Origin: Microbacterium proteolyticum
Lineage (GTDB): Bacteria; Actinomycetota; Actinomycetes; Actinomycetales; Microbacteriaceae
Length of the DNA: 64,000 nt
NCBI RefSeq assembly: GCF_030818075.1
Contig: NZ_JAUSZZ010000001.1
Location: 930,001-994,000 of the forward strand
Direction: 5' to 3'
Every line of letters begins with the position of its first letter. Position 1 is the stretch's first letter. Shown piece after piece: positions 11,545 through 45,700 of the stretch. The position numbers were made by a program, and so were the translations under genes. The notes beneath the pieces are model-generated. The model was not told where the DNA came from. It saw only the letters and a program-made list of their open reading frames with translations, and did no database searches.

Positions 11545-12846
11545 ATGCTTCTCGAAAGAGACCTCATCCAGTCCGTCGGCTTCCGCAACGTCCGCGAGGG
11601 CGGTGAGATCACCGGCTTCCAGTTCCGCGTCCGGATGCCGTCGTACCGCGGCATGGCGGCCTCGCTGATCGACGGCATCGGCGTCCGCATCCCGGGTCTG
11701 GTCGACGTCGCGCCCGACGTGCCGCTGTGGACCCTGCAGGGCGGGACCTACACGCTCGCCGAGCTGTGGGACGGCGACGGCGTGCGCTGGCCGCTCGAGG
11801 ACGCCGCGATCATCACCGTGCCGCTTCCCGGTGGTCTGCCCGACGGGGTGCACGAGTTGTCGATCGAGCTGCGGCTGCGGATGTCGTACATCCCGCAGGA
11901 GCACCAGCCGAGCACCTACCGGGTCACCAAGCACGTCACGCTCGCGCCCGAGGCACCCGGCGCCCCGTTCCGATACGGCGTCTCGCTCTACAGCTACATG
12001 AGCGATTTCGGCACGGTCATGGACCTCGAGACCGCCATGGCCTCGATCGCCGACCTGGGGGCGACGGGCCTGGAGATCCTCGGCGAAGCGCACGTGCCGA
12101 ACTACCCGAACCCCACCGACGCGTGGGTCGAGCAGTGGTTCGCCCTGCTCGAGAAGTACGGGCTCGAGCCCACCAACATGGGCTCGTGGATCGACACGCG
12201 CCTGCACTCCAGCGGCCCGAACGGCCGTGACATGACGGTCGAGGAGGGCACGGCGGCCCTGCAGCGCGACCTGCGCCTGGCCAAGCGCCTGGGCTTCCGT
12301 TTCGTGCGACCCAAGATCGGGGTCGTCTCGGGCGATCTCGTCCCGCACCCGATCTGGACCGAGGTCGTCGAGGCATCCCTCCCGCTCGCCGAAGAGCTCG
12401 ACGTCATCATCTGCCCCGAGATCCACTCACCGACCCCCATCAAGCACGAGGTCGTCGACGACTACATCGCCCTCATCCACCGCACCGGTACGAAGCACTT
12501 CGGCCTGCTGCTGGACACCGGCATCTTCCAGGACCGCCCGATTCCGCTGAAGCCCGGTGAGCTGCCGGGCCAGCGCCCGGCGTTCCTCGACGGCATCCAC
12601 GTCGACCCGAACGATGTGTTCGACGTGATCGAGAACGTCGTGTTCATCCAGGCGAAGTTCCACGACATCGACGAGGAGCTCGACGACAAGCAGATCCCCT
12701 GGGAGCCGGTGCTGAAGGCCCTCAAGGACGCGGGCTACACCGGCTACCTCTCCAGCGAGTACGAGGGAGAGCGTGAGCCGTGGCGCTCCATCGAGCAGGT
12801 GCGCCGCCAACACTCGCTCATCCGCCAGATCGCCGACCGGATCTGA
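11545..12846 (+). CDS. Single-chain C-glycoside deglycosidase-like protein (DUF6379 fused to TIM barrel)
   Basis: 433 residues. Residues 1-135 form a beta-rich DUF6379 domain (VHELSIELRLRMSYIP near its end), the beta subunit type of the CarB/CarC and DgpB/DgpC C-glycoside deglycosidases. Residues 145-433 are a sugar phosphate isomerase/epimerase TIM barrel, the alpha type. Three expected metal-site positions are kept: Glu292 (ICPEIHS), Asp324 (LLLDTG) and Glu405 (SSEYEG). The position usually His in HVHAKF is Gln369 (FIQAKF). Characterised enzymes have separate subunits, so this is a natural fusion in beta-alpha order. ATG at 11545 after GAGAGAG. Eight bases separate it from a second fusion gene. 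Expected substrate: a 3-keto glycoside; the reaction is inferred. Confidence 0.7.
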   Translation: MLLERDLIQSVGFRNVREGGEITGFQFRVRMPSYRGMAASLIDGIGVRIPGLVDVAPDVPLWTLQGGTYTLAELWDGDGVRWPLEDAAIITVPLPGGLPDGVHELSIELRLRMSYIPQEHQPSTYRVTKHVTLAPEAPGAPFRYGVSLYSYMSDFGTVMDLETAMASIADLGATGLEILGEAHVPNYPNPTDAWVEQWFALLEKYGLEPTNMGSWIDTRLHSSGPNGRDMTVEEGTAALQRDLRLAKRLGFRFVRPKIGVVSGDLVPHPIWTEVVEASLPLAEELDVIICPEIHSPTPIKHEVVDDYIALIHRTGTKHFGLLLDTGIFQDRPIPLKPGELPGQRPAFLDGIHVDPNDVFDVIENVVFIQAKFHDIDEELDDKQIPWEPVLKALKDAGYTGYLSSEYEGEREPWRSIEQVRRQHSLIRQIADRI

Positions 12847-12854
12847 GGAACGTC

Positions 12855-14333
12855 ATGCCCAACGGACTCATTCACGACGACAGCCTGCGCGCGCACCCCG
12901 AGGGACTCGCGCTGCGGCTCACGATCCCCTGGTACCGGAGCCTCTGGCTGTCGTCGGTGACGACGCTCGACCTGACCGTCGACGGCGAGCAGGTGGATGC
13001 CGACGACCTCCGCGTCGAGTTCGGTGACGCCTCGTACCGACTCGACGAACTCCCGCAGCAGAGCGAACGGCTCTGGTTCCTGCAGGAGCACCCCCTCCTC
13101 GTCGCCCGCCGCCCCGAGCCGGTCGCCCTCGGCGAGACCCACGACGTCGTGCTGCACGGCGAGCTGCGCCTGCCGTACATGCAGATCGCCCCCGGGCAGG
13201 ACGGCGGGCCGGGGCTCTACGTGCCGAACGTCGTGCACGACGTGAAACCCCTTACGGTCGTCGATGCGGATGCCACGCCCCCGGCGCTCGTGTCCGACGT
13301 CACGCCCCCGCCGCCGGCCGCCGACGACGATCCGTTCCGCCTCGGCCTGACGCTGTACTCGGCGAGCGCGGAGTTCCGCGCCGGCTACTACGACTTCGAC
13401 GGGCTGCTGGACCGGGTGGCGGAGCTGGGGATCGGCCCGGGCATCGAGATCGTGGCATCCCAGGTGCTGCCGACCTACCCGGTCGTCTCCGACGCGTTCG
13501 TCGACACGTGGCGCGCGGCGTTCGACCGGCACGGCTTCGTCGCCAGCTCGTTCGGCGCGAATCTCGACATGGGGCGGCGTCGCGACCGCGACATGACGCC
13601 CGACGAGGAGTTCGCGTTCTCGAAGCTCATGTTCGAGGGGGCGAAGAAGCTGGGCTTCCCGCTCGTGCGCATCCAGAGCGCCAAGCCCGAGCTGCTGCGT
13701 CGCCTGCTGCCGATCGCCGAAGACCTCGAGCTGAAGCTCGCGTACGAGATCCACGCCCCGATGGGGCCGAACGCCGAGCCGATTCTGCGCGTGCGCGAGA
13801 CGTACGCCGAGCTCGACTCGCCCCTGCTCGGCTTCGTCGCCGACTTCTCGTCGACCATGCACGCCATGTCGCCGACGCTGCTGCGGGCCGTGCAGCGCGC
13901 CGGGCTCGACGAGGAGGCGGTCGCGAAGCTGCAGGAGATCTGGACGACGGATGCCACGATGCAGGCGCGCCAGCAGGAGTTCATCGCGTACCTGCGCGGA
14001 CGGGACTTCGACCCGGGCCGCCTCGGTGCCTTCGCGCACCTCGCGTTCAACATGCACGGCCACGTCGACCCGCGCGAGTGGGCCGACATCATGCCGCAGA
14101 TCCTGCACGTGCACGCGAAGTTCTACGACATCGACGACGCGGGGCAGGAACCGGCCATCGACTACCCGGAGCTCGTGCGGGTGTTCGTCGAGGGCGGCTA
14201 CCGCGGCTTCTGGTCGAGCGAGTGGGAGGGTCACGCCTTCGCCGAACTCGGCGAGGTCGACCCGCTGCTCTTGGTCAGGCGCCAGCACGACCTCATCCGC
14301 GCGTCGATGCGGGCGGTGACGGCGGGGGTCTGA
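12855..14333 (+). CDS. Second single-chain DUF6379/TIM-barrel deglycosidase-like protein
   Basis: 492 residues. The N-terminal 130 residues are DUF6379 (RLTIPWYRSLWLSSVTTLDL, LRLPYMQIAPGQDGGPG) and closely resemble the free subunit at 25595. A Pro/Asp-rich linker (TPPPPAADDDP) leads to a TIM barrel from about residue 160 that resembles the free alpha protein at 23736. The full metal set is present: Glu298 (YEIHAP), Asp330 (VADFSS), His420 (HVHAKFYD) and Glu456 (SSEWEG). It therefore looks like an intact one-chain version of the 23736/25595 pair. Co-transcribed with 11545. Activity on C- or O-glycosides is inferred from family only. Confidence 0.72.
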   Translation: MPNGLIHDDSLRAHPEGLALRLTIPWYRSLWLSSVTTLDLTVDGEQVDADDLRVEFGDASYRLDELPQQSERLWFLQEHPLLVARRPEPVALGETHDVVLHGELRLPYMQIAPGQDGGPGLYVPNVVHDVKPLTVVDADATPPALVSDVTPPPPAADDDPFRLGLTLYSASAEFRAGYYDFDGLLDRVAELGIGPGIEIVASQVLPTYPVVSDAFVDTWRAAFDRHGFVASSFGANLDMGRRRDRDMTPDEEFAFSKLMFEGAKKLGFPLVRIQSAKPELLRRLLPIAEDLELKLAYEIHAPMGPNAEPILRVRETYAELDSPLLGFVADFSSTMHAMSPTLLRAVQRAGLDEEAVAKLQEIWTTDATMQARQQEFIAYLRGRDFDPGRLGAFAHLAFNMHGHVDPREWADIMPQILHVHAKFYDIDDAGQEPAIDYPELVRVFVEGGYRGFWSSEWEGHAFAELGEVDPLLLVRRQHDLIRASMRAVTAGV

Positions 14334-14862: not shown

Positions 14863-15804
14863 TCAGTGTGGCGCGTGGCCCGCGGCGATCACGCGACCGG
14901 CCTCGGCGAAGAGGCCGCGCATCCACTCGTGCTCGGGATCCCGGTTGTGCGAGGGATGCCACCACAGCGCGCTCACGATGGGAGTCGCCACGAACGGCAG
15001 CGGCACCACGCGGATCCCGCCGATGCGCAGCAGGTGCGGGGCCAGGGCCGACTGCACCAGTCCGACGCGGCGTGTGCCGCTGATGAAGTGACCGACCGAC
15101 AGGAAGCTCTCCAGCACGACCTCGATGTGCGGCTCGACGCCGAGCTGCTGGATCTGTCGAGCGGCCGAGGTGAAGGCCGAGCGCGACTGGAAGGTCAGCA
15201 CCCACGGCATGTCGGCCAGGTTCTGCATCGTGAGCTCGTCGCCGACGGCGTCGTTGTCGTCGGCGACGACGGCGAGCCAGTCGTCCTGCCAGAGGTCGAG
15301 GTAGGGCAGGTCCGAGACCGGCCCGTGGGGGATCACCATCGCATCGGCCGATCGCAGTCGGGTCGCCGCGTCTTCGACGATGCCGGGATTGTGCAGCATG
15401 AAGCGGAAGCGCACCCCGGGCGCGCGCTCGGCGGCGAGTTGCGACACGATCGTGCCGACGGTGACGAAACCGTAGTCCGACCCGTAGATCGAGAACTCCC
15501 GCGCGGACTCCGACGGCGACCACGACGCCTGACTCTCGAAGACGCGCCGGGCGGCCTCGAGGGCCGTGCTCGTGTGGTCGGTGAGACGGATCGCGAACGG
15601 GGTCAGCTCGTAGGTGTTGCCCCGACGCGCGAGGATCTGGTCGTTGAAGTGCGTACGCAGGCGCGAGAGTGAGGCGCTGAGGGCGGGCTGGCTGAGGTGC
15701 AGGCTTTCCGCCGCGCGCGTGACGCTGCGCTCCGTGAGCAGGGCGTCGAGCGCGACGAGGAGGTTGAGGTCGAGGCGCGAGAGCGTCGCATGATCGGTCA
15801 CCAC
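14863..15804 (-). CDS. LysR-family transcriptional regulator
   Basis: 313 residues. The winged helix-turn-helix is at residues 8-65 (LDLNLLVALDALLTERSVTRAAESLHLSQPALSASLSRLR in register), followed by a substrate-binding-like effector domain of normal length. It is divergent from the sugar ABC importer starting at 16031 with 226 bp between, which suggests it controls that transporter and the glycoside genes behind it. The start was set at the GTG at 15804 with AAGGA about ten bases upstream; an adjacent GTG one codon in is equally possible. The N-terminal DLNLL and effector domain resemble the NodD/LinR side of the family, which answers to aromatics; ligand unknown. Confidence 0.88.
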   Translation of the reverse strand: MVTDHATLSRLDLNLLVALDALLTERSVTRAAESLHLSQPALSASLSRLRTHFNDQILARRGNTYELTPFAIRLTDHTSTALEAARRVFESQASWSPSESAREFSIYGSDYGFVTVGTIVSQLAAERAPGVRFRFMLHNPGIVEDAATRLRSADAMVIPHGPVSDLPYLDLWQDDWLAVVADDNDAVGDELTMQNLADMPWVLTFQSRSAFTSAARQIQQLGVEPHIEVVLESFLSVGHFISGTRRVGLVQSALAPHLLRIGGIRVVPLPFVATPIVSALWWHPSHNRDPEHEWMRGLFAEAGRVIAAGHAPH

Positions 15805-16030: not shown

Positions 16031-17323
16031 ATGGCTCCGCAACGCCGCTTCACGCGTATCGCAGGTCTTCTCGTTCTTCCCGCCACCGCTTCCCTCGTGC
16101 TCGCCGGGTGCTCCGGCTCCGGCTCGGGCGACGCCTCGCAGGGCGGATCGAACTCGTTCTCCCTCACCTACGCCACCTCCAACAACATCGAAAGCCCCTT
16201 CGAGGCGCTGGCGAAGAAGTACATGGAGGCGAACCCCGATGTCACCATCACCCTGAACCCCCAACCGAACGACACGTACGGCGACACGCTGCGCACGCAG
16301 CTGCAGGCGGGCAACGCCTCCGACGTCCTCGAGACCGAGGCGGGGAGCGGCCAGACCCGCAGCATCATCCCGCTCGCCAGGGCCAACTTCCTCGAGCCGC
16401 TGCCGGAGTCGGTGAAGGACGTCATCCCGGCGGGCAGCGAAAACCTCGTGACACTGGACGGCACCATCTACGGCCAGCCGTTGGGCATCTCGTACGCCGG
16501 TCTCATCTACAACGAGGTGGCGGCCACCGCGGCCGGCATCACCTCCTTCGCCACGACCGAGAACGAGCTGATCACGCAGTGTCAGGAGGCGAGCGCGGCG
16601 GGGAAGAGCCTGTTCGTCCTGGCGGGAGCGACCGTGCCGAACGCCGGCATCACGGCATCCATCGTCGCCGCCACCCGCGTGTACGCCGAGACGCCGGACT
16701 GGAACCAGCAGCGACTCGACGGTGAGGTGACCTTCGCCGACAGCGCCGGGTGGAAGGACACGCTCGAGACCGTCAAGAAGTTGTACGACGAGGGCTGCTT
16801 CCAGGCGGGGGCGGAAGGCGCCGGATTCGACGCCATCACCAACGGCCTGACGTCGGGAACGAACATCAGCTTCTTCGGCCCCGTTTCCAACGCCGCGCAG
16901 CTGCAGTCGGCCGCTCCCGAGCAGAAGTTCGTCGCCCAGGCGTTCCCGCCGGCCACGGCCGGTGACAAGTCCTTCGGCGTGGCCAGCCCCACGTATTCGC
17001 TGTCGCTGAACGCCGCCTCCGCGAACAAGGACGCCGCGAACGCCTTCCTCGACTGGGTGGCCGCGCCCGAGCAGGCCAACCTGTTCGCCGATGTCTCCGG
17101 GCTGCTTCCCGTCAGCGGCCTGTCGTCGCTCGACCTGTCCAGCACGATCTACGCCGACGTCGCCGATCAGATCGAGAACGGTGACTACACCCCGCTGGCC
17201 AACTCCGACTGGCCCAACGCATCCGTCTACGACGCCCTCGCGACGGGCGTGCAGGGACTGCTGACCGGGCAGAGCACGGTCGAGAGCGTCCTCGCCTCGC
17301 TGGACACCGCCTGGGATCAGTGA
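16031..17323 (+). CDS. Sugar ABC transporter substrate-binding lipoprotein
   Basis: 430-residue extracellular binding protein of family 1. The N-terminus has a positively charged start, hydrophobic core and lipobox LVLAGC, so it should be lipid-anchored at the outer face of the membrane. The mature part begins with a Ser/Gly linker and has the alternating beta-alpha pattern typical of oligosaccharide binders (FEALAKKYMEANPDVTITL, EAGSGQTRSIIPLA). ATG at 16031 after AGAAAGG. First gene of an importer with the two permeases that follow; a strong stem-loop at 17331 separates it from them. The ligand is unknown but context suggests a glycoside. Confidence 0.9.
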   Translation: MAPQRRFTRIAGLLVLPATASLVLAGCSGSGSGDASQGGSNSFSLTYATSNNIESPFEALAKKYMEANPDVTITLNPQPNDTYGDTLRTQLQAGNASDVLETEAGSGQTRSIIPLARANFLEPLPESVKDVIPAGSENLVTLDGTIYGQPLGISYAGLIYNEVAATAAGITSFATTENELITQCQEASAAGKSLFVLAGATVPNAGITASIVAATRVYAETPDWNQQRLDGEVTFADSAGWKDTLETVKKLYDEGCFQAGAEGAGFDAITNGLTSGTNISFFGPVSNAAQLQSAAPEQKFVAQAFPPATAGDKSFGVASPTYSLSLNAASANKDAANAFLDWVAAPEQANLFADVSGLLPVSGLSSLDLSSTIYADVADQIENGDYTPLANSDWPNASVYDALATGVQGLLTGQSTVESVLASLDTAWDQ

Positions 17324-17330
17324 GTCCCCG

Positions 17331-17358
17331 CCGGCCGGAGCGCTCGCGCTCCGGCCGG
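17331..17358 (+). promoter_or_regulatory. Intercistronic stem-loop after binding-protein gene
   Basis: Perfect 12-bp stem, CCGGCCGGAGCG pairing with CGCTCCGGCCGG around a CTCG loop, eight bases after the binding-protein stop and 33 bases before the first permease. No T-tract follows. Such structures commonly protect the upstream message so the binding protein is made in excess over the permeases. Confidence 0.7.
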
Positions 17359-17391
17359 CGCATCCCCCACGACGACGGAGCAGAGGGCGAC

Positions 17392-18348
17392 ATGACAGCG
17401 ACATTGCAATCCGAGACCGAAGCGGTGATCGTTCCGCGACGCAACGGTCACCGCCGCCGGGTGCGGCCACCCCGCCGGCCGGGCCTGTTGAAGTTCGGTT
17501 ACTGGTGGTGGGCCCTGCCCGGCATCCTGATGGTCCTGGCCATCCACTACGTCGCGACGACCGTCGGCGGGTTCTTCTCGTTCACGAACTGGACCGGAAT
17601 CGGGGACTTCGACTTCGTCGGGTTTGAGAACTTCCGGAGGATCTTCGCCGATCCCACCAAGATCGCGGCCCTCGGCAACACGCTCTTCCTCGCCTTCGCT
17701 TCCGTCATCCTGTCGAACGCGGCGGGCCTCGGGATCGCGGTCGGCCTGAACCGCGTTCTGAAGACCCGATACATCCTGCGCACGCTGTTCTTCATGCCGG
17801 TGGTGCTCAGCCCGCTGGCGACGTCCTACATCTGGAAGTTCATCTTCCAGTTCGACGGTCCGCTCAACGTCATCCTCCGGGCGGCCGGGCTCGGCGACTA
17901 CGCCAAGACCTGGCTGGCCGACCCGGCGTGGGCCATCTGGGCGGTGCTCATCGTCGTGGTGTGGCAGAACATCGGCTTCGCGATGGTGATCTACATGGCG
18001 GGCCTCGCCGCTGTCCCCGTCGAGATCGAGGAAGCCGCGGCCATCGACGGCGCGAACCTCTGGCAGCGCTTCTGGCACGTCACCATTCCCTCGATCCGTC
18101 CCGCGATCGCCATCGCCACGACTCTCGGTCTCGTCAACGGTCTGCGCATCTTCGACCAGATCATGGCGTTGACCGGCGGCGGCCCCGCCAACGCCACCGC
18201 CACTCTGGCCACCGAGGTCTACAAGCAGGCCTTCTCACTGGGCAACTTCGGCTACGGCGCGGCCCTGGCGCTGTTGCTCACCGTGATCATCCTGGCCTTC
18301 GCCGTCGTGCAGCAGCGCGCCGGTCAGGGCCGCAACGCGGAGGACTGA
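17392..18348 (+). CDS. Sugar ABC transporter permease, MalF type
   Basis: 318-residue inner-membrane subunit with six predicted helices. The EAA loop reads EEAAAIDGANLWQRFWHVTI, the docking site for the ATPase. The ATG at 17392 has GAGGG upstream; an earlier in-frame start would run through the stem-loop. Six bases before the second permease. No ATP-binding gene is in the cluster, so it probably uses a shared MsiK-type ATPase, as is common for actinobacterial sugar importers. Confidence 0.9.
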   Translation: MTATLQSETEAVIVPRRNGHRRRVRPPRRPGLLKFGYWWWALPGILMVLAIHYVATTVGGFFSFTNWTGIGDFDFVGFENFRRIFADPTKIAALGNTLFLAFASVILSNAAGLGIAVGLNRVLKTRYILRTLFFMPVVLSPLATSYIWKFIFQFDGPLNVILRAAGLGDYAKTWLADPAWAIWAVLIVVVWQNIGFAMVIYMAGLAAVPVEIEEAAAIDGANLWQRFWHVTIPSIRPAIAIATTLGLVNGLRIFDQIMALTGGGPANATATLATEVYKQAFSLGNFGYGAALALLLTVIILAFAVVQQRAGQGRNAED

Positions 18349-18354
18349 CGCACG

Positions 18355-19191
18355 ATGTTCCGCTACACAAAACTCTCAGCGCTGCGCGAAGTCGGTTTCT
18401 GGATCGTCGCCCTGCTGTATCTCGCACCGTTCTACCTGCTCGTGACGATCTCGCTGAAAGGCGACCAAGAAAGCGTGTCGTCCTCGCCGCTGGCTCTGCC
18501 GACGGCTCCCTCGTTCGACAACTTCGCGAAGGTGCTGAACGCGACGGGCAACTCCAACGTCGTGCTGGGCCTCGTGAACAGCGTCATCATCACGGCGGGC
18601 AGCATCGTCTTGATGGTGCTGCTCGGCTCTTTGACCGGCTACGTGATCGCGCGCTCGACCCGACGGTGGAGCCGCGGCGTCTACTACCTGTTCCTCGTCG
18701 CGATCGTCCTGCCGACGCAGCTGGGTACCGTCCCGCTCTACATCGGCGCGCGGACACTCGGTCTCACCGGTACGACGTGGGGCATGATCCTGCTCTACTC
18801 GGGGATGCTGATGCCGCTGGCGATCTTCCTCTACGCCGGGTTCTTCCGCGGGCTCGGCACCGAGTACGAAGAAGCTGCGGCCATCGACGGGGCGTCCCGC
18901 ACGCAGATCTTCTTCCGTATCGTCCTGCCCCTGATGTCTCCTGCGACCGGAACCGTGGCGATCCTCGCGGGGCTCATCGTCTGGAACGACTTCTTCACGT
19001 CGCTGATCTTCCTCGGGGGCTCCAAGTCGCAGACGCTGCCGGTCGCGATGTATTACTACATCGGCTCGCTGGTCTCTCAGTGGAACCAGATCTTCGCGAT
19101 CGTCATCATCTCGATGATCCCGATCCTCGCGTTCTACCTGTTCGCACAGAAGCGATTCATCCAGGGATTCGCCGGCGGGCTGAAGGGCTGA
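18355..19191 (+). CDS. Sugar ABC transporter permease, MalG type
   Basis: 278-residue partner permease. Six hydrophobic helices; EAA loop EEAAAIDGASRTQIFFRIVL; the C-terminal FAQKRFIQGFAGGLKG is typical of the MalG/UgpE group, where this end contacts the ATPase. The following SnoaL-like gene begins three bases after the stop, so transport and enzyme genes appear to be in one operon. Confidence 0.9.
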   Translation: MFRYTKLSALREVGFWIVALLYLAPFYLLVTISLKGDQESVSSSPLALPTAPSFDNFAKVLNATGNSNVVLGLVNSVIITAGSIVLMVLLGSLTGYVIARSTRRWSRGVYYLFLVAIVLPTQLGTVPLYIGARTLGLTGTTWGMILLYSGMLMPLAIFLYAGFFRGLGTEYEEAAAIDGASRTQIFFRIVLPLMSPATGTVAILAGLIVWNDFFTSLIFLGGSKSQTLPVAMYYYIGSLVSQWNQIFAIVIISMIPILAFYLFAQKRFIQGFAGGLKG

Positions 19192-35423: not shown

Positions 35424-35465
35424 CGTCGTCCCGTGGGGCCTGACGACGCCGCTATCGTCGGGACC

Positions 35466-35903: not shown

Positions 35904-35916
35904 GCCCCGGCATCCT

Positions 35917-36000
35917 GTGTCACGAGAACAGGGGATGCCGTGGGGACAGGCCGTTTCGGAGTCGACCGCCCTGTTCTCGTGGCGGAGCCTGTTCTCATGA
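35917..36000. repeat. Palindromic repeat unit C
   Basis: Third copy, 14 bp after the GNAT stop, with TGTCACGAGAACAGGGGATG at the left and CGGAGCCTGTTCTCATG at the right. Confidence 0.8.
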
Positions 36001-36019
36001 CGGCGGTGGCGCCTGCGGT

Positions 36020-36085
36020 CCGCGGCCGTGTCATCAAAACAGGGGATGCCACGAGAACAGGCCCTTTCGGCGGGCGCACTCAAGT
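36020..36085. repeat. Palindromic repeat unit D, left part, split by IS30-family element
   Basis: Begins GTGTCATCAAAACAGGGGAT and runs through GAACAGGCCCTTTCGGCG before meeting the IS left end. The missing right part (CGCCCTGTTTCC through GAGCCTGTTCTCGTG) is at 37371-37412 on the other side of the element. Confidence 0.75.
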
Positions 36086-37358: not shown

Positions 37359-37364
37359 GCCTGA
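36120..37364 (+). CDS. IS30-family transposase
   Basis: 414 residues. N-terminal helix-turn-helix region (FLTLLEREQIAVGVARGESIRQIARGLGRHPSTVLRELRRN in register) for end binding, then a DDE catalytic core: Asp in GHWEGDLIIG, Asp in TWDQGKELS and Glu in GTNENTNGLLRQYFP. GTG at 36120 chosen for its GAGGGGG site; a TTG five codons upstream also opens the frame. Appears full length and intact. Confidence 0.92.
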   Translation: MFSVLRSVKREFWRGIAAGLSTADAAGAAGASRQGAERWFRDAGGMSPLSLSDPSGRFLTLLEREQIAVGVARGESIRQIARGLGRHPSTVLRELRRNRGNLPRYRAKRTMRPPTQSVFYSPSTAQGRADRRLSRPKPSKLASQLSLRVEVQRRLRLGHSPQQISRRLRVDFPDDESMRISHEAIYRSLFVQGRGELRNELTRALRSGRTTRKPRARTQRQAAAAAGPGKIPGMVMISDRPAEAEDRAVPGHWEGDLIIGKDGLSQIGTLVERATRFVILLHLPARRDAETVADQMIQQMRRLPDLLRRSITWDQGKELSAHARITVEADLRDGVFFCDPHSPWQRGTNENTNGLLRQYFPKGTDLSGYTADYLDYVATQLNDRPRMTLDWATPTEALERLLSTPPDNGVALTA

Positions 37365-38850: not shown

Positions 38851-38942
38851 GCCCGTCACGCTTCCACGCCCCCTCGCCGTCGCCGAGGGGGCGGCGCATC
38901 CCCACCCCGTGTGCTACCGCGCCGCGCCGCGCCGACCCGCGC

Positions 38943-39039: not shown

Positions 39040-40029
39040 TCAGGCGCGGACCCGCGCGCCCTCGAGGAGCGGGCGCAGCACCTTCTGCACGTACCAGCCG
39101 GCCACCATCGTGCTCTCGGCGGGGTGGGGGCTCTGGTCGGACTCGACGACGATCCAGCCGCGGTAGCCGTGCTCGGCCAGCGCGCCCACGAAGCCCTCGA
39201 AGTCGACCAGCGCGCGTTCGTCGCTCGGCTCGAAGAACCAGCGGAGGATCTTCCGTGCACCGCCCTCGGTGCGGATGAACTGCTCCGCATGCGGCGTCGA
39301 CGCCTCCTCGTCGTCCACCGTCTCGCGCGCGTCCTTGAGCTGCACGTGCACGACGCGGCCGGCGTGGCGGCGGTAGAAGGCGACCGGGTCGATGCCGGCG
39401 ATCGCGTACTCGGCGGTGTCGATCGCGAGGCCCACGGTGTCGGCATCCGTCGCTGCGAGCAGGCGCGAGATGCCGTCGTCGAGGCGGAGCGCCGAGAGGA
39501 AGTCGACGTGCAGGCCCAGCGTGACACCGTCGGCGGCGATGGCCGCGCCGACGGCGTTCCACAGGCTCGCGAGCACACCGATCTGCTCGGCCGACAGCGC
39601 GCCGGTCTGCCAGGCCGACGGCGCGGCCCGCACGACGAGGACGCTCCCGCCCAGCCGGCGGATGGCGTCAGAGAACCAGCGCGCGGTGCGCACGATCTGG
39701 TCGACCGCCGCGGGGTCGAGCGGGTCGGGCCCGCGGCCCATCTCGACCTCGAAGCCGACGGAAGGGTCGTACACGTAGCTGCTCACGGCGTCGATCGCGC
39801 ACGAGGCCAGGAACTCCTTGAAGCCCTCGACCGAGCCGTACAGGTCGGCGAGCTGCTGGGGTGTGCCCAGCGGTTCCCACGGCCCGAAGCTCTCCGCCGT
39901 CAGTTCGACGCCCGAGAAGCCGCTGATCGACACGGTCTTGAACGCCCGCTCGTGTTCGCGCGTGCGCACGAACGAGTCGATGTTGGTGTCCCACTGGTTG
40001 ATGGCGTAAGCCCAGCGCACGTCGCTCAT
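39040..40029 (-). CDS. Sugar phosphate isomerase/epimerase family protein
   Basis: 329-residue TIM barrel. Begins VRWAYAINQWDTNIDSFVRTREHERAFKTV in register. Barrel site residues: GLHVDFLS in place of the usual E-x-H-x, AIDTAEYA (Asp), VVHVQLKDAR (His) and VVESDQSP (Glu). The first ligand position looks unlike the canonical Glu. ATG overlaps the upstream stop (ATGA). Last gene of the minus-strand operon 42456-39040; probably acts on the sugar side. Confidence 0.75.
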   Translation of the reverse strand: MSDVRWAYAINQWDTNIDSFVRTREHERAFKTVSISGFSGVELTAESFGPWEPLGTPQQLADLYGSVEGFKEFLASCAIDAVSSYVYDPSVGFEVEMGRGPDPLDPAAVDQIVRTARWFSDAIRRLGGSVLVVRAAPSAWQTGALSAEQIGVLASLWNAVGAAIAADGVTLGLHVDFLSALRLDDGISRLLAATDADTVGLAIDTAEYAIAGIDPVAFYRRHAGRVVHVQLKDARETVDDEEASTPHAEQFIRTEGGARKILRWFFEPSDERALVDFEGFVGALAEHGYRGWIVVESDQSPHPAESTMVAGWYVQKVLRPLLEGARVRA

Positions 40030-40976
40030 CGCGCGACCTCCTCGGTGTAGATGCCGTCCAGCACGTTCTTCGCGTACCACCGGGCGATGGCGGTGCTCTC
40101 GGCGTAGTCGCCGCCGAGCTTGTCGGCCTTGTCGTGCTCGACGCTGATCCAGCCGCTGTAGCCGTGGTCGCGCACCGAGCGCATCATGGCCTCGAAGTCG
40201 ACGAGCCCCTCGTCGGTGCCCATCTCGTAGAACCATTTCTCGGTGGTCTTCGCCGAGACCTCGGCATCCGGGAACATCCGGTAGTCGTCGTTGACGTCCT
40301 TGTGCCGGGTGTCTTTGAAGTGGAAACCCGTCACCCGCTCGTGGTGCTTCTCGTACACGTCGACGGGGTCGACGTCGGCGATGCAGTGCTGCGCGGTGTC
40401 GACGAAGAACTTCACGTACCGCGGGTCGGCGTACGAGTAGAAGCGGTCGATCTGATCGCGCGTGCGGATGCCGGCGTAGAACTCGTGGTGGCAGGTGAGG
40501 TTGACGCCGTACTGCTGCGTCAGCTCGCCCACCTTGCCCCACACGTCGGCGGCGTGCTTCAGACCGTCGTCGGGCACGCCCGCCTCGTCGAAGTAGCGCG
40601 AGCCCGGCATGACGATGATGTTGTCGAGCTGGATGCCGGACCACATGTCCAGCGTCCGCTGGAAGTCCTCGATGATCGTGGGGTGCGTCGCCGGCACCTC
40701 GGGGGCGTACCGGTCGGGCGAGTAGTACACGCCGTGGAAGGTGTTGACGATGCGCTCCAACCCCTGCTCCTGCACGAACTCCTGGTAGTTCGCGACCGAG
40801 CCGTACTGCTCGAAGATCTGCCAGATGCGGAAGTCGAACGTGTCGATCGCGTCGAAGCCGACAGCGGCGACCTGCTGCAGGAAGCGCTTCATGGCCAGCT
40901 TGGACTGCCACTGGTCGTAGGGCCCGGCGGGGCCCTGGGCCCGCCAGTGATCCATGTAGCTCCACTTGATCGTCAT
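40026..40976 (-). CDS. Sugar phosphate isomerase/epimerase family protein
   Basis: 316-residue TIM barrel. Begins MTIKWSYMDHWRAQGPAGPY and continues with AAVGFDAIDTFDFRIWQIF. Metal-site candidates are Glu in CHHEFYAG, Asp in FVDTAQH, His in GFHFKDTRHKD and Glu in SVEHDKADKLGGD. Good AAGAGGAG site before the ATG at 40976. It lies behind a 23-bp perfect hairpin (41007-41066) that separates it from the deglycosidase-like genes of the same operon, so its level may be set separately. Confidence 0.78.
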   Translation of the reverse strand: MTIKWSYMDHWRAQGPAGPYDQWQSKLAMKRFLQQVAAVGFDAIDTFDFRIWQIFEQYGSVANYQEFVQEQGLERIVNTFHGVYYSPDRYAPEVPATHPTIIEDFQRTLDMWSGIQLDNIIVMPGSRYFDEAGVPDDGLKHAADVWGKVGELTQQYGVNLTCHHEFYAGIRTRDQIDRFYSYADPRYVKFFVDTAQHCIADVDPVDVYEKHHERVTGFHFKDTRHKDVNDDYRMFPDAEVSAKTTEKWFYEMGTDEGLVDFEAMMRSVRDHGYSGWISVEHDKADKLGGDYAESTAIARWYAKNVLDGIYTEEVAR

Positions 40977-41006: not shown

Positions 41007-41066
41007 GTGAGTCGCCACGATGTGTCGCCGCGAGCGTGCTCGGGGCGACACATCGTGGCGACTCAC
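41007..41066. promoter_or_regulatory. Perfect 23-bp stem-loop between operon genes
   Basis: Arms at 41007-41029 and 41044-41066 pair without mismatch over 23 bp (GTGAGTCGCCACGATGTGTC begins the left arm), with a 14-base loop. It starts inside the stop codon of the 41063 gene. Without a T-tract it may be a terminator-attenuator or a processing/stability element. Confidence 0.75.
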
Positions 41067-42046
41067 GCGGCGGGTGGGGCGGAGAGTGCGGCGGCGGCCA
41101 GGGCGAGATGACGCGAGGTCATCTCCCACGGGTCGTCGTCGAGCCACTCCTGGCCGCCCCACTCGCTGCAGAGCGTGCCGGTGAATCCCGCCGCGGCGAG
41201 GGCTGTGCCCACGTCGCGAAGGGGGTCGGAGAGACGGTCGTCGTCGTCGACGAGGTCCCAGAACTTCAGGTGCACCGCCCCGACGAGGGGGAGGACGGAT
41301 GCCAGATCAGCGACGCGCGAACGCCCGAACCGCACGAGCAGGTTCATGTACAACGTGTGAATGGGCCCCGGCACCCCGCCCGAGCGCAGCTGGTCGAGCA
41401 CTGCTTCGTGGGTCGCGGGATCGCGCCACTCGCCGCGGAGGCGCCGGACGAGGTCGGCGGGGAGGCCGCCGCGCTCGATCTCGTCGAGATAGGTCACGGG
41501 CAGCGCCGGCATGAGCATGCTGATGTCGAGCAGCAGCCGCACGTGCGGGGAGTCGAGGTCGGCGATGCGGTCGTACGCGTTCGGGCGGGCGGCGGGCGTC
41601 TCGTGCCCTTGCGCCTCCTCGTAGAGCACGAGGTCGAGCTCCTCCAGCAGCGGCACGAGATCGTCGAGCAGTGAGCCCGCCTGGCCGATCGGCAGGCGAA
41701 CGCCCGCGGCGCCGGCCTGAGCCGCCGCGCGCAGCTGCGGTTCGAGGAACGCCCGGCGCTCGGCATCCGTCCGCCGGCGCCCGCGGTCGAACTCGTCGAT
41801 GCTCACGCCGACGACGCTGACGCGGCCGCCCGCGGCGGCCAGGCGATCACGGAAGGTCTCGGCGTCGGCGGCGGACGGCGCGGGGAATCCACGCCACATC
41901 TGACCCAGTTCGATCTCGATCGCGGCGGCGATGTCCCGCTCGACCAGCGTGAGCGCCAGGTCCGGGGCGGTGCGTTCGGCGCGGATGACCTCGGGGGTGA
42001 GATTGAACGCGCTGGCGGAGAGCGTCCAGCCCGCGGGGAGGCTCAT
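41063..42046 (-). CDS. TIM-barrel protein, deglycosidase alpha subunit-like
   Basis: 327 residues of the sugar isomerase superfamily. Resembles the barrel half of the 11545 fusion: Glu in LYEEAQGH, Asp in LLLDISM, His in VHLKFWD and Glu in CSEWGGQEW, so the full metal set is present, unlike that fusion. Coupled by ATGA to the DUF6379 gene just upstream, forming a beta-alpha pair like 22010/22417. Expected to cleave a keto-glycoside; substrate unknown. Confidence 0.72.
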   Translation of the reverse strand: MSLPAGWTLSASAFNLTPEVIRAERTAPDLALTLVERDIAAAIEIELGQMWRGFPAPSAADAETFRDRLAAAGGRVSVVGVSIDEFDRGRRRTDAERRAFLEPQLRAAAQAGAAGVRLPIGQAGSLLDDLVPLLEELDLVLYEEAQGHETPAARPNAYDRIADLDSPHVRLLLDISMLMPALPVTYLDEIERGGLPADLVRRLRGEWRDPATHEAVLDQLRSGGVPGPIHTLYMNLLVRFGRSRVADLASVLPLVGAVHLKFWDLVDDDDRLSDPLRDVGTALAAAGFTGTLCSEWGGQEWLDDDPWEMTSRHLALAAAALSAPPAA

Positions 42047-42456
42047 GAGGTGCCGTCCACATCGCGCGACACGCTGCCGGCGGCGGCGCCGGTCGTCAGC
42101 GGACGGGTGAAGGCGAAGGGAATGCGCAGCGGCTGGTCCGGTCCGCCGGGGAGATAGGGGATCTCGAGGCGGAACGACACCGACACCTCATGGATGCCGG
42201 GGCTCACGGCATCCGGGATCTGCAGTACGACGCGGTCCTGGAGGTACCACCAGGCGTCTTCGTCGGCGAGGGCTGCGGCGCTGACCCGGCGCGCGCCGAG
42301 GGCGATCGCCGGCTCGGTCGCGTGTCCGTCGATCTGCACCACCGGCTCGAGGAGGCCGGCCAGTGGAAGCGAGCGGATCCACGGCAGCGACAGACGGACC
42401 TCGGCCCCGTCGGCGGTGGCGCGCAGCGCGTCGTCGCGCAGAGCGGAAAGGGTCAT
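42043..42456 (-). CDS. DUF6379 protein, deglycosidase beta subunit-like
   Basis: 137 residues. RLSLPWIRSLPLAGLLEPVVQIDG, WWYLQDRVVLQ and HEVSVSFRLEIPYLPGG mark DUF6379. ATG at 42456 with GAGGA ten bases upstream; a GTG three codons earlier sits too close to it. First gene of the operon running down to 39040 and preceded by an AT-rich candidate operator. Confidence 0.72.
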   Translation of the reverse strand: MTLSALRDDALRATADGAEVRLSLPWIRSLPLAGLLEPVVQIDGHATEPAIALGARRVSAAALADEDAWWYLQDRVVLQIPDAVSPGIHEVSVSFRLEIPYLPGGPDQPLRIPFAFTRPLTTGAAAGSVSRDVDGTS

Positions 42457-42518: not shown

Positions 42519-42530
42519 TAATGTCGAATT
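42519..42530. promoter_or_regulatory. Candidate operator before the second glycoside operon
   Basis: On the minus strand AATTCGACATTA, AT-rich in GC-rich surroundings, 63 bp upstream of the DUF6379 gene and overlapping the ROK stop codon. It matches 11 of 12 bases with the right half of the palindrome at 21934-21950. Confidence 0.4.
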
Positions 42531-43809
42531 AAGGAAGAAGTCGGACGCTCGCACCATGGACCGCCGCCACCGTGGGGCGTCCCTCGGCGAACCAGCGGGG
42601 CAGAGACACCTCGAACAGCTGCTCGAGAGCGAGGTCGACGCCGCCGCGCACCGGCGCACTGCTGTCGCTCTCGCTGGTCCTGATGTCGAGATCGCGAGTG
42701 GCCAGGGGCAGCGACAGCTCGTACACGCGCTGGCGGATCTCGGCGAGGAACAGCTCGCCCGTCGACGCCACCGCGCCGCCGACCACGATCACGCCGGGGT
42801 TGAACATGTTCACGAGGGCGGCCACCGCCTCCCCGACCTGCCGGGCCGCGGCCTGGACGAGCGAGATGGCGAGGGGGTCGCCGCGCTCCGCCGCACGGGC
42901 CACGTGCTCGGGGGTCAGCTCTGTTCCCGCGGCGACGGCGTCGGCGAGGGCGCCCGTCGCCCCACCGTCGATCGCGGCGCGCGCGTCGCGCACGAGCGCC
43001 CATCCGCCGGCGACGGCCTCCAGGCAGCCGGTCTTGCCGCAGCGGCACACCTGCTCGGCGCCCGGCACGCGGACGTGACCCATGTCGCCGGCCGCACCGT
43101 TCGCGCCGCGATGCAGTCGCCCGTGCGAGACGAGCCCCGCGCCGATGCCCGTGCCCACCTTGCAGTAGATGAGGTCGATGCTCTCGTCGCGACGGCGGGC
43201 GCGCTCGCCCGCAGCGAGGAGATTGACGTCGTTGTCGACCCAGACGGGGGCGTCGTAGCGCTGCTCGAACGCCGTGCGGACGTCGTAGCCGTTCCACCCG
43301 GGCATGATCGGCGGGGCGACCGGGCGGCCGGTCTCGAAGTCCACCGGCCCGGGCAGGCCCACGACGAGCGCCCAGACCGGGGTGCCGTCGCCCGCGGCGA
43401 GCAGCTCGTCGACCATGGCGGTGGCCGTCGCGAGGGTCTCCTCGGGGCCGCGCGCGATGTCCCACGCGCGGTGGGCCTCGGCGAGGATGGCGCCGTCGAG
43501 GTCGGTGACGCCGACGTGGATGTGCAGGCCGCCGAGGGCGCACACGACGATGCGTCCACGCTCGGTGCGGAAGCGCAGGGTGCGCGGGGCGCGGCCCCCC
43601 GAGGAGGGGGCGTACTCGGCATCCTCGAGGAAGCCCATCTCGACGGCGCGGTCGACGCGCTGGGCGACGACGCCGCGTCCGAGGCCGGTCACGCGTCCGA
43701 TCTCGGGCCGGGTCACCGCGTCACCGAGGCGCACCATGTTGACGATGCGCAACAGGCTCGTGACCTCGTCGGTCTGGGCGCCGAACCGCAGGGTGGACAC
43801 GTTGGCCAT
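42529..43809 (-). CDS. ROK-family transcriptional repressor
   Basis: 426 residues. N-terminal winged helix (VTSLLRIVNMVRLGDAVTRPEIGRVTGLGRGVVAQRV in register), then the ROK sugar-kinase-like domain: VDNDVN, KVGTGIGAGL, and the zinc motif CRCGKTGCLE. NagC/XylR-type proteins of this build sense sugars. It sits between two glycoside gene sets, in line with the operon it probably controls and divergent from the Gfo/Idh gene. ATG at 43809 lacks a strong ribosome site; an in-frame start at 43878 exists but would add non-homologous sequence. Confidence 0.88.
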   Translation of the reverse strand: MANVSTLRFGAQTDEVTSLLRIVNMVRLGDAVTRPEIGRVTGLGRGVVAQRVDRAVEMGFLEDAEYAPSSGGRAPRTLRFRTERGRIVVCALGGLHIHVGVTDLDGAILAEAHRAWDIARGPEETLATATAMVDELLAAGDGTPVWALVVGLPGPVDFETGRPVAPPIMPGWNGYDVRTAFEQRYDAPVWVDNDVNLLAAGERARRRDESIDLIYCKVGTGIGAGLVSHGRLHRGANGAAGDMGHVRVPGAEQVCRCGKTGCLEAVAGGWALVRDARAAIDGGATGALADAVAAGTELTPEHVARAAERGDPLAISLVQAAARQVGEAVAALVNMFNPGVIVVGGAVASTGELFLAEIRQRVYELSLPLATRDLDIRTSESDSSAPVRGGVDLALEQLFEVSLPRWFAEGRPTVAAVHGASVRLLP

Positions 43810-43919: not shown

Positions 43920-44966
43920 ATGACGTGGGGCGTGGGCATCATCGGAGCGGGCCCCGGCGTCGCGGCGTTGCACGCGCCGACGCTCGCGCGGACCGGCGGC
44001 GATTTCCGGCTCGTGCACGTCAGCGACGCCGGGAGCGGGCGGGCAGCGCTCGTCGCCGAGCGGTTCGGCGCGCGGGCGTCGACGGGCATCGACGCGCTCC
44101 TCGCCGATCCGGACGTCGATGTCGTCGCGGTGTGCAGTCCTCCCGCGCAGCATGCGGCGCACGTGCGGGCCAGCCTCGCTGCGGGGCGGCGCGCGATCTT
44201 CTGCGAGAAGCCGCTCGCCGACACGGCCGCGGAGGCGGAGCGACTCGTCGCCGAGTGCGCCGCGGTCGGAGCTCTGCTCGTCGTCGGAGCCAACCACCTG
44301 TTCGACCCCGCGTGGGGGCGCGCCACTCACCACATCGGTGCTCTGGACGGGCGCATCGCCTCGGTCACCGTGACCCTGTGCCTCTCGCCCAACGACCGCT
44401 ACCACGCGCTGACGATGGGGGAGCGCCTGCCCGCGGCGGCGCCGCCGCGGCGGCCGCCCCTCGACCTCGACGACCCCGAGCAGAGCGCCGCGATCGTGCG
44501 ACAGCTCGTCGCCGGTCTCGGCGTGCACGACCTTCCCCTCGTCCGCGACCTCCTGCCCGCGGCTCCCGAGCTGGTGTGGGCGCGGCCCGTCGCGCCGATC
44601 GGGTTCGACCTGGCGCTCCGGGCGGACGGGGCGCTCGTGCGATTCACCGCGGTCATGCTGCCGGAGGGCGCGGATTCGCTGTGGCGCGTGAGCGTGGCGA
44701 CGGCGGCGGCTCGCGTCGAGATCGAATTCCCGCCCCCGTTCGTCCACGTCGGCGGCGCCCGCACCACGGTGCGCGACGCGCAGGGGGTGCGAACGGTCTA
44801 CCCCGTCGACCGACGCGACGGGTACGAGGTCGAGTGGCGGGCGCTCGCCGCACTGCTGCGCGGAGAGTCCGCGATGGAATACGACGAGCTCCGCGCGGAC
44901 GCGGTGTTCGTCACGACCATCGCCGATGCGGCGGCTGCCGCGGTGCGGGCGGGGGGCATGCGGTGA
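43920..44966 (+). CDS. Gfo/Idh/MocA-family oxidoreductase
   Basis: 348 residues. Rossmann motif VGIIGAGPGVAALH; CEKPLADT as the catalytic lysine motif; VVGANHLFDPAW follows. The ATG at 43920 is preceded by GAGGGGG and gives a normal start; an earlier in-frame start at 43887 adds eleven residues. Divergent from the ROK repressor with 110 bp between, suggesting control by it. Coupled to the next gene by GTGA. Confidence 0.85.
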   Translation: MTWGVGIIGAGPGVAALHAPTLARTGGDFRLVHVSDAGSGRAALVAERFGARASTGIDALLADPDVDVVAVCSPPAQHAAHVRASLAAGRRAIFCEKPLADTAAEAERLVAECAAVGALLVVGANHLFDPAWGRATHHIGALDGRIASVTVTLCLSPNDRYHALTMGERLPAAAPPRRPPLDLDDPEQSAAIVRQLVAGLGVHDLPLVRDLLPAAPELVWARPVAPIGFDLALRADGALVRFTAVMLPEGADSLWRVSVATAAARVEIEFPPPFVHVGGARTTVRDAQGVRTVYPVDRRDGYEVEWRALAALLRGESAMEYDELRADAVFVTTIADAAAAAVRAGGMR

Positions 44967-45700
44967 CCCCGCACGACGTGCTCGCCGACGCGGCACCGTA
45001 CCGGGCGGCCGTGGCCGAGCTCGCCCCTCGGGTGCGCCTCGGCGACGGTGCCGGCGGTATCCGCGTGGTCGAGGGGCGCGGTGCCTGGTGGGAGCGGCTC
45101 GTCGACGCGGCGGCCTTCGTCGTCGACGAGCCCGACCCGGCGCCGGCCGTGGTCCACGAACGACTCGGTGCGATCGGCGTTCCGGTCGTGGTCGTGCGCC
45201 GCCGCCTGCGCCCCGATGTCGTCGTCGATGCGCGCGCCGGAACCGCCGTGCCGCATCACATCGTGGTCGACGCCTGGGGCGGGCGGACGGATGCCGCGGC
45301 GCTCCTGCGTGACGCGGTCGGATGGGCGCGGGTGCTCGCCGGCGGCCCGCTGAGCGTCGTCGGTCGCGCCGACACGACCTCGGCGACGACGGTCGCCCTG
45401 CGCGGTGCAGGGGGTATCGGCGCAAGCGTGACCCGGGCGATCGGCGGCGGGGTGGGCGGCGCGCTCACCGCCACCGCCCTCGGCCCGTGCCGCATCGAGG
45501 TGCGGGTGGACTCGGCCTCGCCGCTCTGCGAGGTGGTACTCGAGGACGAGGAGGGGCGTCGGGCCCGTCCCGTCCGTCGAGAGTCCCCGGAGCGTCTCGC
45601 GCTGCGACGGATCGTGGATGCCATCGAGGCGGGCGCTGCGCTGACCGACCTCGACGAGCTGTCGGCGGATGACGCGGTCATCTCGCATCCGCTCCGGTGA
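44963..45700 (+). CDS. Unrecognised protein paired with Gfo/Idh dehydrogenase
   Basis: 245 residues that I cannot place in a family. GTG overlaps the dehydrogenase stop. Visible features: a basic/acidic N-terminal half (VVVRRRLRPDVVVDARAG, HHIVVDAWGG), a Gly-rich middle (GAGGIGASVTRAIGGGVGG) and a C-terminal helix (RRIVDAIEAGAALTDLDELS). The layout suggests a small accessory subunit or a degenerate dehydrogenase-related protein; its C-terminus resembles the substrate-domain end of Gfo/Idh proteins. Function unknown. Confidence 0.65.
   Translation: MTPHDVLADAAPYRAAVAELAPRVRLGDGAGGIRVVEGRGAWWERLVDAAAFVVDEPDPAPAVVHERLGAIGVPVVVVRRRLRPDVVVDARAGTAVPHHIVVDAWGGRTDAAALLRDAVGWARVLAGGPLSVVGRADTTSATTVALRGAGGIGASVTRAIGGGVGGALTATALGPCRIEVRVDSASPLCEVVLEDEEGRRARPVRRESPERLALRRIVDAIEAGAALTDLDELSADDAVISHPLR

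Follow-up and report, generated by a model that had tools for sequence, protein, structure and literature searches.

A conserved Microbacterium island with five lineages of C-glycoside deglycosidase type, one of them without the catalytic pair

The subject of this article is a gene island of Microbacterium proteolyticum, which lies in a stretch of 64,000 nucleotides (the window, positions 930001-994000 of the 3.77-Mb genome, which is a single contig) and carries five copies of the domain DUF6379. In Pfam, this domain is today the family PF19906, with the name CGDB, i.e., the beta subunit of C-glycoside deglycosidase (CGD). Gene content, homology, residue patterns, synteny, and co-occurrence together make it quite likely that the island is a conserved catabolic locus for plant C-glycosides, and probably for some O-glycosides, whose genes would provide for uptake, C3-oxidation, elimination of the aglycone, hydration, reduction, and ring cleavage, and in which a fifth pair of CGD type, named A5/B5, would have another role.

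The genes of the window were called with a codon model, and 40 window proteins were scanned against Pfam. A preliminary description of the same DNA, made from its letters alone, had placed DUF6379 at 11545, 12855, 22010, 25595, and 42043, and all five copies were confirmed, four by Pfam and that at 42043 by its family profile and predicted fold. The nine barrels of the sugar-isomerase type were also found where they had been described, namely within the fused genes at 11545 and 12855, at 19585, 22417, 23736, and 27320, and on the minus strand at 39040, 40026, and 41063; eight of them score above the Pfam cut-off for PF01261, and that at 41063 alone falls below it (E=0.0024). The same holds for the three arrangements of the two domains: the genes at 11545 and 12855 are beta-alpha fusions, the pairs 22010/22417 and 42043/41063 are coupled by ATGA, and the gene at 25595 is parted from its barrel at 23736 by a SnoaL_4 gene at 24804. 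All four significant PF19906 matches of the 3.77-Mb genome lie inside the window, and the family is present in none of 14 control genomes, so that the cluster is not due to chance.

Four predicted deglycosidases with the catalytic pair

To read the residues of these proteins, we use the numbering of AgCGD2 from Arthrobacter globiformis, for which passages in Mori et al. 2021 (PMC8563793) give Glu147, Asp179, His269, Lys271, and Glu305 as metal ligands and His149, together with Glu307, as the catalytic base; the same source describes two CGD pairs with subunits that are not exchangeable. The island encodes two fused proteins, fus1 and fus2, and two alpha/beta pairs, A3/B3 and A4/B4, that retain the catalytic pair (Table 1). 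In fus2, A3, and A4, all published metal ligands are kept along with His149 and Glu307, and the PF19906 matches of fus2, B3, and B4 are all above the curated cut-off. The pattern extends to their relatives: in a set of 45 alphas that are of neither A5 nor fus1 type, the three window proteins included, Glu147, His149, and Asp179 occur in 45 of 45, and His269, Lys271, Glu305, and Glu307 in all 44 that reach these positions, the other being a fragment. Over all non-A5 alphas, His149 is found in 56/56 and Glu307 in 55/56, the remaining one again a fragment.

The closest link to a solved protein is that of fus1, which aligns over residues 1-433 with PDB entry 8qrz, titled Microbacterium testaceum C-glucosyl deglycosidase, with 16 differences (counted by eye) and 96% identity. 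All 11 fus1-type alphas aligned keep the catalytic His149 and Glu307, and all 11 have Gln in place of the published ligand His269. Since the solved protein titled as a CGD also has Gln there, His269 may not be a strictly CGD-defining residue. As for fus2, A3/B3, and A4/B4, they are predicted CGDs, of which A4/B4 alone has a tie to published activity, by way of the orthologous AgCGD2: the A4 gene product at the syntenic place in Arthrobacter globiformis NBRC 12137 scores 790 bits against the AgCGD2 alpha chain (7dnm_A) and is 78% identical to the window A4. Selection on these genes was expressed as pN/pS, the ratio of nonsynonymous to synonymous differences, here in uncorrected proportions between the window genes and three close relatives. 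It amounts to 0.06-0.21 for fus1, fus2, A3, and A4 (0.10-0.21 for A3 and A4), to 0.21-0.31 for B3, and to 0.10-0.15 for B4.

A phylogeny of the DUF6379 and barrel pairs, which had been proposed as a check, was built from 75 alphas and 75 betas. Both trees give the same sister relation, with A4 joining the alpha part of fus2 (support 98) and B4 its beta part (support 87), and each alpha and beta type forms an old lineage of its own, except for some distant rows that belong to a second island of genome G352, described below. The earlier claim of several paralogous deglycosidases is thus borne out by the trees. In the alpha tree, the A3 label and that for the alpha part of fus2 each need two changes, and the rows of the second island fall elsewhere; in the beta tree, which has few columns, the B5 group is weakly supported (60%), two B4 pieces of locus L087 were left out, and one identical B5 row was entered twice (L097/L098). 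A recent origin of the pairs by tandem duplication was rejected because the trees show each type to be an old lineage common to several genera.

Within the genus, PF19906 occurs in 80 of 366 Microbacterium genomes, mostly with 3-5 and with up to 7 copies. Five relatives that were mapped have largely the same gene order from fus1 to a second GMC gene, with some genes missing or added (G001, for instance, has neither an Iso2 nor a SnoaL_4 label). Further loci were collected around A5 with search patterns, and the best 80 of the 89 found, from at least ten genera, were used for all counts over 80 loci. Largely the same order is seen in many of these 80, so that it recurs in Arthrobacter and in Microbacteriaceae outside the genus; on one Arthrobacter plasmid, the genes from fus1 through B5 are present. 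On a plasmid of Novosphingobium sp. ES2-1, the order differs and the fus1 homolog consists of two genes, alpha then beta, so that the fusion is not universal. Two loci have titles that do not fit their genes: a contig titled Stenotrophomonas maltophilia P13 (L154) carries this actinobacterial island, probably through contamination or mislabelling, and one titled Planococcus sp. (L137), with Microbacterium-like genes in its island, is probably mislabelled.

Repeats accompany several of these genes. Four 21-bp repeats at 22421-22506 lie within the A3 frame just past its start and add about 28 N-terminal residues, and none of the 16 relatives examined has them at the B3/A3 junction. The same repeat, with the consensus CCCTTCGACAGGCTCAGGGAC, stands between island genes at 23602-23667 and 26012-26056, with more units at 4834-4889 and 48152. 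A dense tandem array of 16-bp/124-bp repeats occupies 10871-11286, directly upstream of fus1.

A fifth pair without the catalytic residues

The fifth beta gene, B5, is diverged, and on its own it matches PF19906 at E=0.005 and 17.1 bits, below the curated cut-off of 27.6. In an alignment of its orthologs, 38 of the 40 members match the family at E<=0.1 (best 4.7e-08); the profile of these 40 orthologs matches CGD beta chains in the PDB, at best with 1.2e-14; and the AlphaFold model of B5, with a pLDDT of 90.5, has 17 PDB matches at E<=0.001, all 17 of them CGD beta chains or fused CGD. Family profile, PF19906 matches within the family, and predicted fold together rule out a false call for the fifth DUF6379. 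The family profile of A5, set against AgCGD2 alpha (7dnm_A), aligns the same residue columns, and the kinship of A5/B5 with CGD thus holds by sequence for both subunits and for the beta subunit also by fold.

In A5, the metal site is kept and the catalytic pair is replaced. Two sets of loci were counted: the 80 pattern-derived loci, and the best-scoring 30 matches of a protein search, one each from 30 genomes among the 77 with A5. Because the patterns contain His269, Lys271, Glu305, and the Gly at position 307, the 30-locus set is the fairer count for these four positions, and Gln149 is part of neither pattern. Position 149 is Gln in 29/29 of the 30-locus set and in 80/80 of the larger one, and position 307 is Gly in 30/30 and 79/79, respectively. 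The ligand Glu147 is present in 29/29 and 80/80, and Asp179, His269, Lys271, and Glu305 are present in 30/30 and 79/79.

The distribution of the pair follows that of the island. In Microbacterium, A5 occurs in 77 of the 80 PF19906-bearing genomes as against 0 of the other 286 at that level, i.e., at 56% identity or more over the match, a cut-off set by eye (in two genomes the match comes in two pieces); the Fisher p of 1e-46 in this co-occurrence test ignores relatedness. One PF19906-negative genome, G141, has a weak A5 match (E=5e-4), which was not counted. Among 396 genomes from the order, an A5-level match (E<1e-150) was found in five, all Microbacterium, and any match below 1e-20 in seven, in a sample that misses genera where the pattern search had found A5. 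B5 lies at most 300 nt from A5 in 79 of the 80 loci and 325 nt away in the remaining one; the two are on opposite strands in 15. With pN/pS of 0.22-0.25 for A5 and 0.37-0.45 for B5, both genes are constrained, A5 less so than A3 and A4, and B5 less so than B3 (itself above A3/A4) and B4, and the two diverge faster than A3/A4 and B3/B4. Four A5 loci are short (L079, L119, L179) or contain a stop (L136). Simple decay of A5 is unsupported, since the protein is conserved and, by pN/pS, under purifying selection, although some copies are broken.

A distant version of the pair exists elsewhere. The Microbacterium testaceum genome G352 has a second CGD island (L181 and L182, G352:C8:155001-194000), in which an A5 relative of 33-34% identity, with the EXQ and EWGG signature of A5, stands beside its own B5-like gene. 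This island also holds further distant pairs of CGD type, two tandem GMC copies, and IolE-like barrels.

How A5/B5 is to be understood depends on what the lost and the kept residues are taken to mean. On balance, we lean towards a distinct, conserved CGD-like complex that has lost the catalytic dyad, kept its metal, and taken on another role, as a glycoside or aglycone sensor or as an enzyme of another step. The pair is probably an old and conserved CGD offshoot that does not run the usual elimination, and it would instead bind or sense a ligand or perform a different step; this step may, for instance, concern substrates with an anionic aglycone, given the position of an invariant RFGR stretch of A5, which two alignments place at the aglycone-contacting Asn248 of AgCGD2 (a third pairs another residue). 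The intact metal ligands, the beta partner that stays beside A5, the purifying selection on A5, and the invariance of both Glu143 and Glu144 in an alignment of 38 rows would also suit a scheme in which all five pairs are ordinary CGDs that differ in aglycone preference, with A5/B5 taking its base from another residue, such as the extra invariant Glu143. We regard this scheme as unlikely: Ala mutants at the two catalytic positions keep 1.8% and 1.9% of the activity in MiCGD and 10.4% and 49.8% in PuCGD, according to passages in PMC8563793, both residue changes co-occur across at least ten genera and in the 33-34% relative of the second island, and A5 and B5 outpace A3/A4 and B3/B4 in divergence. 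A related thought, that A5/B5 is a ligand-binding pseudoenzyme or sensor that works with the adjoining ROK regulator, is possible, though doubtful. It agrees with the presence of the ROK label in 77 of the 80 loci, with the faster divergence of ROK, Gfo2, A5, and B5 relative to A3/A4 in six comparisons, and with the many positions that stay invariant around the lost dyad; yet a pure sensor would not need the full metal site that is kept, Pfam matches no DNA-binding or signalling domain in A5 or B5, and adjacency to a regulator is weak evidence.

The proposed route, the probable ring-cleavage genes, and points against them

For the island as a whole, the reactions, their substrates, the order of the steps, and whether the pathway works in this strain are matters of inference. 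The sugar importer (a binding protein and two permeases), the ThuA protein, and the two Gfo/Idh proteins that had been described earlier are all present by Pfam. The importer would take up the glycoside, whose sugar would be oxidised at C3 by the GMC oxidase; one of the four metal-dependent CGD enzymes, two fused and two heterodimeric, each probably fitted to different aglycones or attachment positions, would then eliminate the aglycone and leave 2-hydroxy-3-keto-glucal. Iso2, probably a 2-hydroxy-3-keto-glucal hydratase, would turn this product into 3-keto-glucose, and Gfo1 would reduce the latter to glucose. The phenolic that is set free would, in most Microbacteriaceae, be hydroxylated by an FAD monooxygenase and opened by an extradiol dioxygenase cluster.

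The genes for these last reactions lie beyond the end of the island as first drawn. The preliminary description had closed it at 45700, and this boundary has to be moved, as a probable ring-cleavage cluster at 46091-53107 accompanies the island, judged by synteny and co-occurrence. According to Pfam, the cluster encodes, in this order, an extradiol dioxygenase-like protein, a FAH-family protein, a cyclase-family protein, an FAD monooxygenase, an amidohydrolase, a second FAH-family protein, and an SDR, and the pathway probably continues here into aromatic ring cleavage of the aglycone. In 55 of the 80 loci, three or more of its first six genes are located no farther than 10 kb from A5, and the dioxygenase gene, at 72% identity or more (also set by eye), occurs in 75 of the 80 PF19906-bearing Microbacterium genomes as against 30 of the other 286. 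Against the catechol 2,3-dioxygenase model TIGR03211, the dioxygenase scores 245.8 bits, with an equivalog cut-off of 320.2, and so it is treated as a relative and not assigned as that enzyme. On the plasmid of Arthrobacter sp. StoSoilB13, relatives of the dioxygenase (82%) and the monooxygenase (66%) are found some 25-28 kb past fus1. A Deinococcus aetherius plasmid has, in a row and on one strand, an importer, a CGD alpha, DUF6379, GMC, a relative of the dioxygenase (64%), and cyclase-family and FAH-family genes, with an FAD-oxidoreductase/monooxygenase relative (31%) farther down.

Several points weigh against reading the locus as a catabolic island of this kind. The substrates and aglycones are predictions; there is no ATPase gene beside the importer genes; fus1 is without one published metal ligand, though the PDB lists its type as a CGD; and Gfo1, the dioxygenase, IsoA, Bar7, and Bar8 score under the cut-offs of the NCBIfam models that they match. 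Iso2 is nearer to 2zds (4.5e-158), deposited as a putative DNA-binding protein, than to the hydratase 8ro4. The dioxygenase is also present in the 30 genomes without PF19906 and, at 72% identity, was not found in five with it, and most Arthrobacter loci have few cluster genes within 10 kb of A5. The matched stretch contains a stop in five of the 77 A5 copies (only at its very end in two or more of these), and two copies come in two pieces. The genus-wide counts are phylogenetically non-independent, and, with 5-6 candidates scored per genome, the absences are not strict. Finally, this assembly has a frameshift in the GMC gene.

This frameshift also bears on whether the pathway is intact in the strain. 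The GMC oxidase reported earlier at 20376 stands as to its kind, as its N-terminal part matches the solved GMC oxidases 7qf8 and 7dve, which we take to be PsG3Ox and MtCarA; however, the frame breaks near 20990 in a short G run, and the C-terminal part runs on in another frame to 21924, so that no full-length open GMC protein is read there. The 20376 protein has no Pfam match. The change is absent in 19 of 19 relatives compared. The first description of the pathway as one of uptake, C3-oxidation, deglycosylation, and keto-sugar handling is right, but the word complete is doubtful in this genome because its GMC oxidase reads as frameshifted. Both a sequencing error and a real loss are possible. 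A FecCD permease gene at 30048-31128 (minus strand) is likewise split between two frames, at about 30530, and the two breaks could mean that the island is decaying in this strain, with the GMC oxidase a pseudogene and the first step lost. We hold such decay to be conceivable but rather doubtful: sequencing error would also account for two breaks in 64 kb, one of them in a short G run, that affect genes conserved in other respects; fus1, fus2, A3, and A4 show no sign of decay by pN/pS; and the genome has a second GMC gene of this kind at 996013, a little past the end of the window, whose frame is open over 614 codons (a third is at 1159585). A catabolic island is also to be preferred to the notion, very improbable in our judgement, that the barrels are ordinary sugar isomerases with DUF6379 as an incidental neighbor. 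Its merit is that IsoA, Bar7, and Bar8 are nearest to hydroxypyruvate isomerase and IolE models, below the cut-offs; its difficulty is that fus1, A3, and A4 match solved CGD alpha/beta complexes. The preliminary description had itself named unrelated isomerases as what the barrels might prove to be. This fits only some of them: those at 12855, 22417, and 23736 keep every published CGD residue, that at 11545 differs in one metal ligand, and all four retain the catalytic His and Glu, but the barrels at 27320, 19585, 39040, and 40026 (Iso2, IsoA, Bar7, and Bar8) resemble other enzymes, and A5 is without the catalytic pair.

Known systems and the other genes of the island

The first two steps of C-glycoside breakdown have been described in a few soil strains, as can be gathered from passages in PMC8563793 and PMC12724307. 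What the island proposes is the remainder, i.e., sugar hydration, reduction, and aglycone ring cleavage in one conserved locus of two actinobacterial families, with a similar coupling of deglycosylation and ring cleavage in the Deinococcus plasmid. Moreover, since one organism holds five CGD-type lineages, of which two are fused and one lacks the dyad, the roles of the fusion, the beta subunit, and the His/Glu pair can be tested directly.

The combination of a GMC 3-oxidase with metal-dependent CGD alpha/beta is common to the island and to carABC of Microbacterium sp. 5-2b, AgCGD1/2 of Arthrobacter globiformis, purABC of Paenarthrobacter, and psg3ox with two CGDs of Pseudarthrobacter siccitolerans. 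The Arthrobacter globiformis locus is the same island type. Compared with these soil clusters, the island adds the five CGD-type lineages, the hydratase and reductase candidates, the ring-cleavage genes, and A5/B5; for strain 5-2b, Mori 2021 (PMC8563793) found no PuCGD-like gene product besides CarB and CarC. The fused arrangement is already known from a solved structure, and the island type is widespread: the Microbacterium testaceum fused CGD (PDB 8qrz and 8un2, released 2025) is the same fused beta-alpha protein as fus1, and fus2 differs from it as a second, separate fused lineage nearest AgCGD2.

The gut clusters dgp and dfg, with PuCGD and EuCGD, have the CGD fold, metal site, and alpha/beta pairing in common with the island (PMC8563793, in part), but, as far as the passages in PMC12724307 and PMC11239390 go, oxidation there is carried out by the NAD-dependent DgpA, a Gfo/Idh/MocA enzyme, and not by a GMC oxidase. 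The OGE/HYD/Gfo operon of Agrobacterium, with oxidation, elimination, hydration, and reduction (passages in Bitter et al. 2023, PMC10628242), follows the same logic, and Iso2 resembles a solved hydratase; the OGE of the operon is without a beta subunit. In fde of Herbaspirillum and ifc of Variovorax, an FAD monooxygenase and a glyoxalase-type protein hydroxylate and dioxygenate the flavonoid A-ring, according to passages in PMC11069340 and PMC11303751. The likeness of the island genes to these clusters, FdeE and FdeC included, is one of gene types, and the passages in PMC11069340 describe no deglycosidase link for fde and ifc.

In open-licence PMC papers, a search for deglycosylation with ring cleavage returned mostly gut and food work, with no soil C-glycoside island among the matches listed, from which we do not claim absence from print; no relevant paper was found there for the PDB codes 8qrz, 8un2, 8qvc, and 8umc, and none for DUF6379. 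A CGD cluster of Deinococcus aerius (PDB 8qvc, 8umc) was reportedly described by Furlanetto in 2024. It has CGD alpha/beta in common with the island, and the related D. aetherius plasmid adds GMC, dioxygenase, cyclase-family, and FAH-family genes after the pair; a profile search of its 29-kb stretch with the A5 and B5 families gave one CGD alpha and one beta only.

Table 1. Features of the island and of the cluster downstream, with positions in the window. Counts over 80 refer to labelled genes at the 80 A5 loci (best 80 of 89).
Feature	Position	Strand	Evidence and remarks
fus1, fused CGD beta (1-115) and alpha barrel (~140-430)	11545-12846	+	PF19906 2.7e-31; PF01261 3.3e-19
fus2, second fused CGD beta and alpha, sister type of A4/B4	12855-14333	+	PF19906 1.3e-13; PF01261 1.2e-07
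LysR-type regulator	14863-15804	-	Pfam HTH_1, LysR_substrate; between fus2 and importer genes in 5/5 relatives mapped
Sugar ABC importer	16097-19191	+	Binding protein 16097-17323, permeases 17488-18348 and 18355-19191; SBP_bac_1, BPD_transp_1
IsoA, hydroxypyruvate-isomerase-like barrel	19585-20379	+	PF01261 4.9e-42; TIGR03234 162 bits, cut-off 353
GMC C-glycoside/glycoside 3-oxidase (CarA/PsG3Ox type), frameshifted	20376-21924	+	N part against 7qf8 3.4e-91
B3, CGD beta subunit	22010-22420	+	PF19906 1.4e-17; best PDB chain 7dnm_B 8.9e-13
A3, CGD alpha subunit	22417-23601	+	7dnm_A 3.8e-53; start overlaps B3 stop by four bases (ATGA)
A4, CGD alpha subunit, AgCGD2 alpha ortholog	23736-24779	+	Synteny and sequence; 64/80
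SnoaL_4-like protein between A4 and B4	24804-25586	+	PF13577 3.1e-15; 42/80
B4, CGD beta subunit, A4 partner	25595-26011	+	PF19906 1e-15; 65/80
Gfo1, Gfo/Idh/MocA dehydrogenase, nearest levoglucosan dehydrogenase model	26068-27234	+	NF052479 356.7 bits, cut-off 650
Iso2, probable 2-hydroxy-3-keto-glucal hydratase	27320-28324	+	8ro4 3.1e-38, residues 17-314
ThuA-like protein	28329-29192	+	PF06283 2.6e-26
P450, CYP152 peroxygenase-like, optional	37543-38859	-	PF00067 1.2e-08; NF053744 284 bits, cut-off 600; 3/80
Bar7, IolE-like barrel, optional	39040-40029	-	PF01261 3.6e-16; TIGR04379 83 bits, cut-off 290; 27/80
Bar8, IolE-like barrel, optional	40026-40976	-	PF01261 1.1e-18; IolE 3cny 1.3e-13; 26/80
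A5, CGD-alpha-like barrel with intact metal site, Gln in place of the catalytic His and Gly in place of Glu	41063-42046	-	Family profile against 7dnm_A 2.6e-35
B5, diverged CGD beta, A5 partner	42043-42456	-	Profile against 8umc_B/8qvc_B 1.2e-14; fold match
ROK-family regulator upstream of B5-A5	42529-43809	-	PF00480 2e-55; 77/80
Gfo2, Gfo/Idh-like N domain	43920-44966	+	PF01408 3.5e-25; DgpA 7xr9 among PDB matches 2.1e-12; 69/80
Protein without Pfam family match	44963-45700	+	64/80
Probable aglycone ring-cleavage cluster	46091-53107	+	Pfam, synteny, co-occurrence

Between the ThuA and P450 genes, the stretch 29203-37364 holds genes for siderophore uptake together with a GNAT gene and an IS30-like transposase. 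It looks like an insertion, because the siderophore genes and the transposase are unlabelled in the islands of the five relatives; part of the GNAT gene is labelled in one genome, G037.

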